Below are positions 3,365 through 18,085 of a DNA stretch of 21,053 nucleotides, in pieces. The first letter of the stretch is position 1, and every line of letters begins with the position of its first letter. The stretch comes from a virus. The DNA lies in IMG/VR virus record IMGVR_UViG_3300042556_001069, positions 1 through 21,053 of that record; one strand, 5' to 3'. The notes under the pieces were generated by a model. The model made no database searches and was not told the origin of the DNA. It worked only from the letters and a program-made list of their open reading frames with translations. A program made the translations under genes and the position numbers.

Positions 3365-3384
3365 TCAAACCTTGTCAAACCTTA
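3365..3384 (+). repeat. Two tandem 10-bp TCAAACCTTG/A repeats
   Basis: TCAAACCTTG and TCAAACCTTA are adjacent with an exact 10-bp period, one helical turn. They belong to the CAAACC/GGTTTG motif family concentrated between here and 4277. They lie about 100 nt upstream of the leaderless gene at 3481. Confidence 0.65.
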
Positions 3385-3467
3385 TATCAAGGTATTACGA
3401 ACTTTGAGAAAATTTCCCCAGAATTAGATTACGATGGTTTGGAATTTTTTCCCAGAACCATACATGA

Positions 3468-3473
3468 TATACT
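3468..3473 (+). promoter_or_regulatory. -10 element TATACT for the 3481 gene
   Basis: TATACT ends 7 nt before the ATG at 3481. No good -35 is visible (a T-run lies at the expected place), and there is no Shine-Dalgarno sequence. Confidence 0.5.
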
Positions 3474-3480
3474 TGTATGT

Positions 3481-3729
3481 ATGACAAGTTTTGAAAGCAA
3501 AGCCCAGATCCTAGGAGAACTATGGATCAACTATAAAGGTGATGATGAATGGGTAGACTTCTTTGAATACAATGATATGGGTTTACCTCTTGCCTTTGCT
3601 TTTGCTGAGGGGATTGTAAACCATACAAATACCCTGGAGCAATACATAAACGAAACCTGGTTTCTATTCCTTGAGGGCCTAGACATTGAAGACACAGGGT
3701 TTGAAGACATATCAGATCTTTTGCAATAA
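3481..3729 (+). CDS. Acidic hypothetical protein, paralogue B (82 aa)
   Basis: The frame is open further upstream to 3331, but that part would translate the hairpins and repeats; ATG 3481 is chosen because a TATACT -10 lies just before it and homology to paralogue A starts here. Shared features are ILGELWINYKGDDEW, EYNDMGLPLAF and YINETWFLFLEGLDIED. The protein is very acidic, like its partner. The two copies have separate promoters, so duplication was accompanied by different control. Confidence 0.7.
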   Translation: MTSFESKAQILGELWINYKGDDEWVDFFEYNDMGLPLAFAFAEGIVNHTNTLEQYINETWFLFLEGLDIEDTGFEDISDLLQ

Positions 3730-3771
3730 GACATTAAGATCCAAACCAAAAAAATCGCTGAACTTTTTATA

Positions 3772-3792
3772 ACAAACCAGGTTTGTCAAACC
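3772..3792 (+). promoter_or_regulatory. Operator-like triple half-site CAAACC-A-GGTTTG-T-CAAACC
   Basis: Three 6-bp half-sites alternate in orientation with 1-nt gaps: 3773-3778, 3780-3785 and 3787-3792. They form two overlapping perfect palindromes (15 bp at 3772-3786 and 13 bp at 3780-3792). The array sits immediately upstream of the extended -10 of the 3810 gene, where a repressor or activator would act. Confidence 0.65.
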
Positions 3793-3794
3793 AA

Positions 3795-3803
3795 TGTTAT
3801 AAT
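3795..3803 (+). promoter_or_regulatory. Extended -10 (TGT-TATAAT), leaderless start at 3810
   Basis: TG at 3795-3796, TATAAT at 3798-3803, then six nucleotides to the ATG. No -35 is present; the palindromic half-sites occupy that region. Confidence 0.7.
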
Positions 3804-3809
3804 GAAACT

Positions 3810-4040
3810 ATGCCAAGAGATCACTTTTCTCAAATGAGTAGACAAACCTCTCATCGCCATGATCAACCACATGATGTCCAAGTCTTTAATAAATCAATGG
3901 GTATTCTTACTGGTATGTTGTATTCTATTGTTACTCTTAAGGCTTTCTTTCCTTCTGCCCCCGCCCCAACGATGACTAATAATCCTGTTAAGGACGCTGC
4001 AAGCGGGGACTCAAAGTATACACAATTAACCCTATGGTAA
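3810..4040 (+). CDS. Small protein with one hydrophobic segment (76 aa)
   Basis: ATG 3810 is preferred over the upstream in-frame ATG at 3783 because it lies 7 nt after an extended TATAAT. Residues 1-25 are polar and His-rich (RQTSHRHDQPHD), residues about 30-48 form a hydrophobic segment (GILTGMLYSIVTLKAFF) and a Pro/Ala-rich stretch follows. It could be a single-pass membrane protein. No family is recognised. The gene is flanked by the CAAACC operator array upstream and a strong terminator downstream, so it is a stand-alone, probably tightly regulated unit next to the putative origin. Confidence 0.6.
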   Translation: MPRDHFSQMSRQTSHRHDQPHDVQVFNKSMGILTGMLYSIVTLKAFFPSAPAPTMTNNPVKDAASGDSKYTQLTLW

Positions 4041-4116
4041 ATAACAAACCATTATGTCCTGGTTTCTAAATATTTCATAATAGTTTTAATAAAAAAGATT
4101 ACGATTGTGGCAAATT

Positions 4117-4143
4117 TCTCCCTGGTTTTGGGAGATTTTTTTT
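4117..4143 (+). terminator. Intrinsic terminator
   Basis: TCTCCC (4117-4122) pairs with GGGAGA (4130-4135) around a 7-nt loop, followed directly by eight T residues (4136-4143). It ends the 3810 unit and insulates promoters P1 and P2. Confidence 0.88.
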
Positions 4144-4156
4144 GCATAAAATGGGC

Positions 4157-4185
4157 TTGACAAACCATACAAGATAGGCTATAAT
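4157..4185 (+). promoter_or_regulatory. Consensus promoter P1 without a downstream ORF
   Basis: TTGACA (4157-4162), 17 bp, TATAAT (4180-4185): a perfect match. A CAAACC box (4161-4166) overlaps the -35. Only a 5-codon ORF follows, so an untranslated RNA directed into the DnaA-box region is expected. Confidence 0.8.
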
Positions 4186-4203
4186 GCCCAAACCATGCAT
4201 ATT

Positions 4204-4277
4204 AAGGTTTGACAGATATGAAGGTTTGTGATACAATCCCGCTACGAAGGTTTGGGGATAGGAAGGTTTGGGGTTTG
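4204..4277 (+). repeat. Cluster of AAGGTTTG motifs
   Basis: AAGGTTTG occurs at 4204-4211, 4221-4228, 4247-4254 and 4263-4270, and GGTTTG again at 4272-4277. Spacing is irregular (17, 26 and 16 nt). Complementary CAAACC copies lie at 4161 and 4189. Confidence 0.7.
4209..4237 (+). promoter_or_regulatory. Near-consensus promoter P2 without a downstream ORF
   Basis: TTGACA (4209-4214), 17 bp, TACAAT (4232-4237), 52 bp downstream of P1 and in the same direction. AAGGTTTG boxes overlap its -35 (4204-4211) and sit in the spacer (4221-4228), positions suited to repression. Confidence 0.75.
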
Positions 4278-4310
4278 GCATTACGAACGCCTTCTATAAA
4301 AGGGCCCTAT

Positions 4311-4340
4311 ACTCCACTATCCTCCACTTTACTCCACTTC
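4311..4340 (+). repeat. Three phased decamers
   Basis: ACTCCACTAT, CCTCCACTTT and ACTCCACTTC follow one another with an exact 10-bp period, directly before the AT-rich stretch and DnaA boxes. They resemble the short tandem arrays found beside unwinding elements. Confidence 0.65.
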
Positions 4341-4375
4341 TACCTTGTCTAATAATATTATCAGTAAGATTAATC

Positions 4376-4429
4376 TGTGGATAACTTGTGGATAACTATG
4401 ACATTTTTAGCATATCAGGCTGTGGATAA
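4376..4429 (-). promoter_or_regulatory. Three perfect DnaA boxes
   Basis: TTATCCACA (written on the - strand) occurs at 4376-4384, 4387-4395 and 4421-4429, all in one orientation, with start-to-start distances of 11 and 34 bp, close to one and three helical turns. A fourth copy lies at 4998-5006. The last box touches the stop codon of the - strand gene at 4430. Confidence 0.8.
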
Positions 4430-4966
4430 CTAATATGTAAACATCTGAAGTGAAACACGTAATTTGCCATCATTTGATACAGTCGTATAGTGTTTTTCAT
4501 TGTTGTCATTATAAACTAACATGCCTTGCTCTGGAACTAAGACCTTCCACTGCTGATCATCTTTGTCAAAGTAGTTAAGTGTGCCACCATCTTGTATTGA
4601 CCACTTCTCATTAAGATAGGCAGTAAAAACCTTTCTATCCGTATCCGAGAAGCCATCCTCGTGCATAGGTATGTAAGAGCCTGAAGTCCATACATAAACC
4701 ATAGTGCTTAGATTCTCTGTCATATCAACTAAGCCCAATACCATCAGTTCTTCTTTGACCTTTAAGGCAATCTCGTCAGGTGGAAAGTATATGATAACTG
4801 GCTTACTGTCTTTGATGATAGAGTTATTCCAGGAAGAGTTGGTAGTTGTTTTAACTGGATTAGGAAAACCCAATGGATGTGTAGATTTTCCGTATATATA
4901 TGTTCCTGCCCACTCATAAAGTTCTTTACATAGTTCTGGACTTATGCCATTTTGTAAAGTCTTCAT
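4430..4966 (-). CDS. 2OG-Fe(II) oxygenase (178 aa)
   Basis: Prolyl-4-hydroxylase-like double-stranded beta-helix enzyme, expected to couple decarboxylation of 2-oxoglutarate to hydroxylation of an unknown substrate. Iron ligands are His102-x-Asp104 (in YIPMHEDG) and His159 (in NEKHYTT); Arg170 (in KLRVSLQ) is placed to bind 2-oxoglutarate. The jelly-roll core spans about residues 85-178. The start follows a TGC-TATACT extended -10 by 7 nt, another leaderless arrangement, and the promoter is divergent from that of the 5023 gene with a DnaA box between them. The substrate could be a protein, peptide, nucleobase or small molecule; nothing in the sequence decides. Confidence 0.85.
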   Translation of the reverse strand: MKTLQNGISPELCKELYEWAGTYIYGKSTHPLGFPNPVKTTTNSSWNNSIIKDSKPVIIYFPPDEIALKVKEELMVLGLVDMTENLSTMVYVWTSGSYIPMHEDGFSDTDRKVFTAYLNEKWSIQDGGTLNYFDKDDQQWKVLVPEQGMLVYNDNNEKHYTTVSNDGKLRVSLQMFTY

Positions 4967-4981: not shown

Positions 4982-4997
4982 TATCCCTGGTCAAGAA

Positions 4998-5006
4998 TGT
5001 GGATAA
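4998..5006 (-). promoter_or_regulatory. Fourth DnaA box, inside a promoter
   Basis: A perfect TTATCCACA (- strand) lies in the spacer between TGGTCA (4988-4993) and TATAAT (5011-5016) of the 5023 promoter, and within the 56-nt divergent intergenic region. DnaA binding here would compete with RNA polymerase. Confidence 0.65.
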
Positions 5007-5007
5007 C

Positions 5008-5016
5008 TGCTATAAT
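5008..5016 (+). promoter_or_regulatory. Extended -10 (TGC-TATAAT), leaderless start at 5023
   Basis: TGC (5008-5010) then TATAAT (5011-5016) and six nucleotides to the ATG; a weak -35 TGGTCA lies 17 bp upstream. Confidence 0.7.
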
Positions 5017-5022
5017 TAAACC

Positions 5023-5109
5023 ATGAAACCTTTTCTCATTATAATGCTTGGCCTATTCATATTTCTAAACTATATGGCTTACCTACAACAGGTCCGTATG
5101 GGTGGATAA
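5023..5109 (+). CDS. Very small membrane protein (28 aa)
   Basis: A leaderless-type start is followed by a hydrophobic segment (FLIIMLGLFIFLNYMAYL) spanning residues 4-21 and a short basic end. It stops 3 nt before the ATG of the cupin-like oxygenase, so it may be a leader or a membrane micropeptide translated upstream of that gene. No family is recognised. The well-placed promoter and the strongly hydrophobic composition support it. Confidence 0.55.
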   Translation: MKPFLIIMLGLFIFLNYMAYLQQVRMGG

Positions 5110-5112
5110 ACA

Positions 5113-5613
5113 ATGATAGACAACTATAAACTCATAGAAAACTACTTCCCTATCAATACAGACTGGCAAACAGCATTAAATATCCTATACAAAAACTCAG
5201 AAGGATCACAAAGACCCAACACACTATGGTTTAAGATAAAAAACCGTAGACTATTTGATGACATTCCAGACCTAAGACCTTTCTTTGAAAAGTTAAACAA
5301 AGACTTTGGTTCAGACTTCTTTGAGGAATGTACCTATTATGATGACTGGTTTGCTGGTCGCTGTAACTGTAAGGCTGTATGGCACATGGATGGGCCAGTC
5401 ATATCATTAGATGGTGGAACTGTAAGCGCACATAGAGATGTAAGTGATGCTTCCTATATCCAAGTACTTGGCAAATCATTTTGGAAATTGGGGGAGGAAG
5501 TAATAACTCTCAATCCTGGGGATATCCTTTTCCTATCTAATGAAATTACTCATGAGGTATGGGGAGAAGGCCCAAGAATGGGTATTCTTAACATGGCTAT
5601 AAAACCACGGTAA
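5113..5613 (+). CDS. Cupin/JmjC-like 2OG-Fe(II) oxygenase candidate (166 aa)
   Basis: A double-stranded beta-helix fold is suggested by the metal triad His107-Arg-Asp109 (SAHRDVSDASY), His147 (ITHEVWGEG) and the strand signature LNPGDILFLSNEITH typical of cupin_8/JmjC-like enzymes. Arg155 could bind the co-substrate carboxylate. The N-terminal 90 residues are helical and carry CNC near the core. It is unlike the three P4H-type oxygenases in the window, so the region combines two oxygenase subfamilies. It follows the 28-aa membrane ORF and converges on the GIY-YIG-like gene with 7 nt between the stops. Substrate unknown. Confidence 0.75.
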   Translation: MIDNYKLIENYFPINTDWQTALNILYKNSEGSQRPNTLWFKIKNRRLFDDIPDLRPFFEKLNKDFGSDFFEECTYYDDWFAGRCNCKAVWHMDGPVISLDGGTVSAHRDVSDASYIQVLGKSFWKLGEEVITLNPGDILFLSNEITHEVWGEGPRMGILNMAIKPR

Positions 5614-17658: not shown

Positions 17659-17925
17659 TTACTTCTTTGCTGCTGCTTTCTTTGCAGGAGCCTTCTTGAC
17701 AACCTTAGCAGCCTTAACTGCCTTGTCTACCTCATCTACTGAAGGCATCTTTCCAAATGCTGGATCAGAAGGGTTGGCTGCTCTCAAGATCACGGGCACA
17801 AGTGCACCAAGTAGTGAGTATGCCAGTGTCTGTGGATCTGTTACACCAGAAGCATACATTGCTGTTGCTGCTCCAAGTACTGATCTTCCGTATGACGCTA
17901 GTGCGTTTTTGATTTGTTGATTCAT
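17659..17925 (-). CDS. Small membrane protein with Lys-rich tail, holin-like candidate (88 aa)
   Basis: A hydrophobic N-terminal half (VLGAATAMYASG, then LAYSLLGALVPVILRAANP) suggests two short membrane segments, followed by DPAFGKMP and a Lys/Ala-rich cytoplasmic tail ending KKAAAKK. Size, two hydrophobic segments and a basic tail fit class II holins or other small structural phage proteins. No lysin is visible nearby, so the call is tentative. AGGAGGAAAATT directly precedes the ATG. Confidence 0.55.
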   Translation of the reverse strand: MNQQIKNALASYGRSVLGAATAMYASGVTDPQTLAYSLLGALVPVILRAANPSDPAFGKMPSVDEVDKAVKAAKVVKKAPAKKAAAKK

Positions 17926-17935
17926 AATTTTCCTC

Positions 17936-18085
17936 CTAGGAATTTATTGCTTGACTATAGTGTAAATCACACAGGTCAACAATTCTGCTTTCAGAACTTG
18001 CCCAAACCTGTGTACTTTCATCCTCGCACAACTCTTCTTCACATATGAATAAGTTAAGATTCTTGGTGTGCTTAAGGACGATCAT
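17936..18085 (-). CDS. Small Cys/His protein (49 aa)
   Basis: TAATG overlap with the stop of the 18085-18489 gene. Cys15, Cys20, Cys39 and His42 (FICEEELCEDES ... VDLCDLHY) are a probable zinc site. The C-x2-H ending resembles that of the 41-residue protein at 6312. No family is recognised. Confidence 0.62.
   Translation of the reverse strand: MIVLKHTKNLNLFICEEELCEDESTQVWASSESRIVDLCDLHYSQAINS

Follow-up and report, generated by a model that had tools for sequence, protein, structure and literature searches.

Organization of the intergenic element

The window analyzed here is a 21-kb fragment (21,053 nucleotides) of the viral record IMGVR_UViG_3300042556_001069, which carries a WhiB-like gene, 2OG-Fe(II) oxygenases, a carbamoyltransferase, and six tRNAs. 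The region at positions 4041-4429 contains no convincing open reading frame; the sole listed frame encodes 60 residues on the minus strand and runs across promoters. A stem-loop with a T run resembling an intrinsic terminator (4117-4142, plus strand; stem at 4117-4135) separates and insulates the element from the upstream genes. Downstream of it, two promoters are found on the plus strand. P1 (4157-4185) matches TTGACA-17-TATAAT at 12 of 12 positions and is followed by GCCCAAACC; TTGACAAACC and TATAATGCC at P1 are nearly invariant among relatives. P2 (4209-4237) reads (GGT)TTGACA-17-TG-TACAAT, with 11 of 12 matches and an extended TG, and contains GGTTTGACA, which is invariant among the aligned relatives. 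GGTTTG repeats (4205-4274, plus strand), whose copy number differs between relatives, overlap the -35 boxes and are a possible phage operator. Over the larger region 3369-4274, the -35 hexamers of several promoters are overlapped by GGTTTG/CAAACC repeats, which form a palindrome, GGTTTGtCAAACC, at 3780 and are possibly a phage operator as well. A conserved segment, TTACGAACGCC..TATAAAAG, follows at 4281-4302 (plus strand) and includes a TTACGA motif that also precedes the MraZ boxes of a second class of viral contigs (class 2).

Three repeats at 10-bp phase, CTCCACTA, CTCCACTT, and CTCCACTT, occupy 4312-4339 and read as AAGTGGAG on the minus strand; the decamer array as a whole has an exact 10-bp period in three copies over 4307-4338. 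Next to them, an AT-rich stretch (4350-4373, plus strand) contains a run of eight NAN trios resembling DnaA-trios, including the conserved ATCAGTAA at 4360-4367. Three perfect copies of TTATCCACA follow on the minus strand: box 1 (4376-4384) follows ATCAGTAA at a start-to-start distance of exactly 16 bp, box 2 (4387-4395) stands in tandem with it across a 2-bp gap, and box 3 (4421-4429) marks a cassette boundary, with a variable position among relatives. The start-to-start spacings are 11 and 34 bp. The original prediction had described the three boxes with this spacing, two strong promoters, three phased decamers with an AT-rich stretch, and the lack of reading frames, all of which are present; its box sequence, however, reads on the minus strand, the plus strand being TGTGGATAA. 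It had mentioned neither the terminator-like stem nor the trio pattern nor the MraZ identity of the decamers.

A 2OG-Fe(II) oxygenase cassette (4430-4966, minus strand) begins directly after box 3, and the gene content downstream differs in most relatives. Such exchangeable cassettes, here and downstream of the boxes in relatives, are bounded by copies of CTGTGGATAACT, an extended form of the box that may itself serve as a homology patch for cassette exchange. A fourth box (4998-5006) lies in the spacer of a plus-strand promoter, TGGTCA-17-TATAAT (4988-5016), within 7 nt of which stands the ATG of a 28-codon frame (5023-5109). The gene at 5113-5613 gave no tblastn match in named phages. The exact box thus occurs four times in the window against 0.42 expected from shuffles, and none of 100 shuffles reached four. 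Allowing one mismatch in the looser TTATNCACA gave 34 occurrences against 33 expected; with no enrichment of this form, only the exact boxes are unusual.

Relatives of the phage and their presumable host

Related IMG/VR contigs reach 117 kb in length, and the related phages code for a DnaB-like helicase, a DnaG-like primase, a DnaE-type polymerase, a UvsX-like recombinase, and a Cas4-like exonuclease. Their DnaE is 53-55% identical to that of the Streptomyces phages Annadreamy and BillNye (Stanwilliamsviridae). The WhiB-like gene and the type of sites point to Actinobacteria as the host group. The family comprises uncultured actinobacterial phages that share a conserved, gene-free element of about 280 bases. 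Searches of the related records, some of them fragmentary, returned no match to the DnaA family (10 records), the MraZ family (25 records), the tyrosine integrases (PF00589, 19 records), or the ParA-type ATPases (PF13614, 19 records). The suggestion that the genome is a phage-plasmid finds no backing in this gene content, which includes a DnaB-like helicase, a primase, a DnaE polymerase, and UvsX-like genes of its own and neither integrase nor ParA-type ATPase in those 19 records.

Several records call for comment. One contig with the phage element (L392) is binned in a Chitinophagaceae MAG, probably as mis-binned phage DNA. Another record (G008; L015 and L155-L160) shows unusually short reading frames, and its DnaB-like gene at 17858-18085 has two in-frame TGA codons in the helicase match, reflecting either sequencing errors or a changed code. 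Two contigs, 3300042402_000973 and 3300042402_004449 (L005 and L007), have 100% amino acid identity to the window in the genes tested and end within or near the element, close to window positions 3921 and 4047. Assemblies break at the element, perhaps because of strain variation.

Conservation and geometry of the element

The original prediction had proposed looking for the same layout in related contigs, and it recurs: at least 127 distinct elements were found among the viral matches listed, selected on (A/T)TCAGTAA plus its neighbors. The counts from the viral and genome collections are lower bounds, and the contigs are related rather than independent. The conserved span begins with promoter P1 and ends with the boxes, beyond which the genes differ. 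Relatives found via an upstream gene also have the element, and each of the six long records checked contains a single copy.

The spacing between the parts is rigid. Among the elements listed, 28 bp separate the last MraZ repeat from (A/T)TCAGTAA in 99 of 127, ATCAGTAA precedes box 1 by 16 bp in all 118 with a perfect box, and boxes 1 and 2 start 11-12 bp apart in 112 of 114. Since this set was chosen on the core, the constancy of the core itself carries no weight as evidence. Viral matches to the repeats that were not selected for CAGTAA nevertheless show it after the MraZ repeats in 82 of 94 cases, at the same offset in 76; eleven of the remaining 12 belong to a second, differently arranged class or to unrelated contexts, and one (L225) looks like a variant of the first class. 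A scan with ATCAGTAA plus box, not selected for the repeats, found at least 94 distinct elements, 89 of 94 with two or more phased repeats. The element is conserved and single-copy, and combines operators of the MraZ type, an AT-rich stretch resembling DnaA-trios, and tandem DnaA boxes at fixed spacing.

Some members depart from this form. In four of the more distant relatives, the element is intact up to ATCAGTAAGA and has no boxes, which shows that it comprises more than DnaA boxes. Among the 127 elements listed, nine have no perfect box, and six MraZ-bearing ones without a recognizable box retain the MraZ operators.

The phased repeats as MraZ operators

The pattern CTCCACTTYACTCCACTT gave at least 119 matches in viral contigs, against two for the reversed control pattern, and at least 119 matches in bacterial genomes. 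Of the cellular matches listed, 100 of 119 have an mraZ-type frame (signature D.KGR...P) within 700 bp, typically about 100 bp downstream, and the phage repeats have the same sequence as sites that immediately precede mraZ in many genomes. The repeat AAGTGGAG on the minus strand, in its 10-bp phase, also agrees with the experimentally derived Mollicutes motif (AAAGTGKN3)3 cited in PMC5282649. At least three GTGG-core direct repeats at 10-bp phase, which we took to define an MraZ operator, are present in the element. Judged by sequence, the decamers are therefore operator sites for MraZ, the division regulator of the host, for which structures are available (9qlr, 9qlg, and 1n0e) and whose binding to the element we infer. 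Generic iterons for a phage initiator are rejected, as the decamers match mraZ operators in cells.

The mraZ operators of the dcw cluster in Actinobacteria, Clostridia, and others have the same three direct AAGTGGAG repeats at 10-bp phase. In contrast to these, the phage site has no mraZ or dcw gene nearby and is combined with DnaA boxes. A copied host mraZ promoter that already carried DnaA boxes was considered as a source and rejected, a box being near only 3 of the 118 cellular sites listed. Likewise rejected was a phage-encoded MraZ or DnaA, none having been found in the records searched. Our literature searches yielded no previous description of phage-borne MraZ operators. In two class-2 viral contigs, a near-perfect parS (GTTTCACGTGAAACA) lies beside the MraZ repeats (L172, minus strand, about 67 bp before them; L182, 57 bp before them), suggesting a further use of host chromosome-handling sites.

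The DnaA boxes and the AT-rich stretch

In candidate freshwater actinobacterial hosts, TTATCCACA lies close to dnaA; Aquiluna has it as two tandem copies 12 bp apart. The candidate host origins share with the phage both the 9-mer and the extended CTGTGGATAACT. Together with the conserved and rigidly spaced array, this bears out the earlier identification of the boxes: they are very likely real DnaA boxes, and DnaA would be expected to bind them. Repressor sites occurring in one orientation are known as the stoperators of mycobacteriophage L5, and the one-way array boxes, which recur at intergenic cassette boundaries, could recall such sites; that TGTGGATAAC is a phage repressor site with coincidental identity to a DnaA box is nonetheless highly improbable, given the perfect consensus match including flanks seen in candidate host oriC, the boxes in both orientations elsewhere in the phage genomes, and the lack of an integrase in 19 records.

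The BUS rule for bacterial origins comprises a box or tandem boxes not more than 3 bp apart, a spacer of 0-16, and at least three NAN trios (PMC8287927). In the window, the boxes at 4376 and 4387 have a 2-bp gap, and eight trios lie beside them, the spacer being 2 when counted from box 1 and 13 when counted from box 2. We compared 31 representatives, anchored on the MraZ repeats plus box and not chosen for the trio core, with shuffled sequences. The mean trio run was 6.2 (n = 31). Row shuffles gave 3.0 and column shuffles 3.1, with 10 of 5000 column shuffles reaching the observed value; with a shuffle mean of about 3, the run is partly expected in any AT-rich stretch. The polarity is that of E. 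coli DUE-R1, with the AT-rich region left of CCTGTGGATAAC, and of the oriC of Aquiluna and Rhodoluna. The element thus resembles the BUS oriC of B. subtilis and H. pylori, and the R1/DUE polarity of E. coli, in its tandem TTATCCACA 2-3 bp apart, its short spacer, and its trios on the same side and strand (PMC8287927). It differs in being phage-borne, in its MraZ operators and two inward promoters, and in the absence of the boxes from some members, and it is known here from sequence. Origins of theta-replicating plasmids and of the P1 type carry iterons and DnaA boxes, and the combination of direct repeats, an AT-rich stretch, and DnaA boxes within a short region is the same. The repeats of the element, however, belong to a host regulator and not to a replicon-encoded initiator, and no partition ATPase was found.

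The further boxes have a different setting from box 1, which lies in a promoter in only 2 of 111 cases. Among 126 further downstream boxes, a -10 hexamer occurs at +4 to +10 (peak 8 nt) in 35, each of which also has a start codon 0-10 nt beyond; in nine, TTGACA abuts the box. The same arrangement of a -10 hexamer and then a start codon is seen at 15 of 96 second boxes, and box 4 of the window (4998) is of this promoter type. Since downstream boxes are often in promoters and box 1 almost never, DnaA may have a dual role, both opening the DNA at the first pair and regulating the exchangeable cassettes.

In the two cultured Streptomyces phages, DnaA boxes 12-13 bp apart stand in tandem within or next to a non-coding gap (Annadreamy 118873/118885; BillNye 119428/119441), about 7 kb from the right end. 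Both also have a third box, which is followed by a shared CTTCTTTTACC (NC_048719, 118436-119921; NC_042105, 119428-119715). These Stanwilliamsviridae phages are thus similar to the element phages in DnaE and in tandem boxes by a non-coding gap, but differ in that the parts examined contain neither a trio run nor phased MraZ repeats. Against named phages and plasmids in general, the exact element gave short or insignificant matches only.

A GC-skew inflection at the site was sought both by windows and as GC3 of genes of one strand. For plus-strand genes, pooled over five records, GC3 skew shifts from -0.06 to +0.05 across the site; minus-strand genes show the opposite, two of the records do not show this shift, and two others (G009 and G010) have identical values and look near-identical. 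No clear inflection is evident from these values. Rfam returned no match except the tRNAs, and the consensus folding energy was about 0 on the plus strand and -4.0 on the minus strand (without a shuffle control); a non-coding RNA was rejected because the folding is not conserved.

A second intergenic family combines DnaA boxes with CRP/GlxR-like palindromes (e.g., TGTGATGCAAATCACA and TGTGTTTAAGGTCACA), CCTAGG, and CGACACGCC motifs (L009, 3158-3240; G005, reverse complement, 107955-108000 and 109763-109810; G008, 83470-85900). In this family, a box pair 11 bp apart precedes a DUF932-like gene.

A proposed initiation site and its alternatives

We tentatively propose, with a little less than even confidence, that the element is a DnaA-dependent initiation or unwinding site flanked by MraZ operators, at 4157-4431 of the window, where the phage would recruit host DnaA, open the DNA, and start replication. 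Host DnaA would bind the tandem boxes 1 and 2, extend toward the AT-rich stretch, capture one strand via the DnaA-trios, and unwind the DNA, as the BUS pattern suggests. The DnaB-like helicase, DnaG-like primase, and DnaE polymerase encoded by the phage would then be loaded. P1 and P2 would fire into the site, and their transcription could aid melting or supply primers. A host MraZ oligomer bound to the operators between the promoters and the unwinding stretch could block or permit this transcription and would thereby tie phage initiation to the division state of the host, the weakest step of the model. That host cell-cycle regulators gate phage initiation in this way, with MraZ between the early promoters and a DnaA-opened origin, seems rather unlikely at present. 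The further downstream boxes would be part of the promoters of exchangeable cassettes.

In favor of an origin are the fixed geometry, the single copy, the agreement with the BUS rule, the polarity, the replisome genes without a detected DnaA, the position of box 1 outside promoters, and the tandem boxes in or beside non-coding gaps of the cultured relatives. The boxless elements, the lack of a clear skew inflection, the absence of trios in Annadreamy and BillNye, and the distance from the replication genes, to which the element is not adjacent, weaken it. An essential origin would be expected in all relatives, although this is not formally required, and the nine of 127 elements without a perfect box limit the claim to the majority form. 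The prediction of a replication origin is thus strengthened by the trio pattern and polarity beside the boxes, whereas a purely origin-based reading is incomplete because of these nine elements and the further boxes in cassette promoters.

Alternatively, the region could be regulatory without being an origin, MraZ and DnaA controlling the early promoters and the cassettes by the cell-cycle state of the host. We regard this as possible but unlikely. DnaA is a known transcription factor (PMC8203912), the element is framed by two strong promoters and a terminator, and elements without perfect boxes keep the promoters and MraZ sites. Downstream boxes, box 4 among them, are also often followed after 8 bp by a -10 hexamer and, 0-10 nt beyond it, by a start codon. 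Promoter control, however, needs neither the 16-bp and 11/12-bp geometry nor the trio run, box 1 is hardly ever in a promoter, and the downstream gene lies on the opposite strand in the window and in others.

It is more doubtful that the element is a decoy, whose replicating copies would soak up host DnaA and MraZ so that host initiation stops and the division/cell-wall cluster is derepressed. Both targets are host cell-cycle regulators, and the exact high-affinity boxes and full MraZ operator occur in phages in which no MraZ or DnaA was found. There is a precedent in datA of E. coli, which titrates DnaA and, like the element, has DnaA boxes outside oriC to which DnaA could bind (PMC5835720). 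Unlike datA, the element is phage-borne and has trios and MraZ sites; titration requires neither fixed spacing between site kinds nor trios nor promoters, and only about 6-10 boxes and one MraZ site are present per genome.

The features listed for the T5-type injection stop signal include DnaA boxes (PMC13250531); in such a signal, repeats and DnaA boxes with bound host proteins would pause DNA entry until the pre-early genes act. With the T5-like signal of Demerecviridae the element shares DnaA boxes that lie in non-coding DNA of a phage genome of roughly 110 kb, weak matches to T5-like phages occur in non-coding DNA, and the tandem boxes of Annadreamy and BillNye lie about 7 kb from the right end. 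Such a function is nevertheless improbable for the element. The model demands a fixed distance from the first-entering end, and trios and MraZ sites play no role in it. The repeat/palindrome structure of the T5-like signal is not seen in the element, which shows neither a conserved inverted-repeat cluster nor conserved RNA-type folding.

We know of no identified origin in large phages of this kind, and the element, as a putative DnaA-dependent initiation site, is a precise and testable origin candidate. Part of the idea is already open to laboratory testing, since tandem DnaA boxes also occur in the cultured Streptomyces relatives. If gating by MraZ is true, the phage would sense the replication and division state of its host through two host proteins at a single site, and the use of MraZ by a phage would connect the replication of the virus with the division cluster of its hosts, the abundant Actinobacteria of aquatic habitats.
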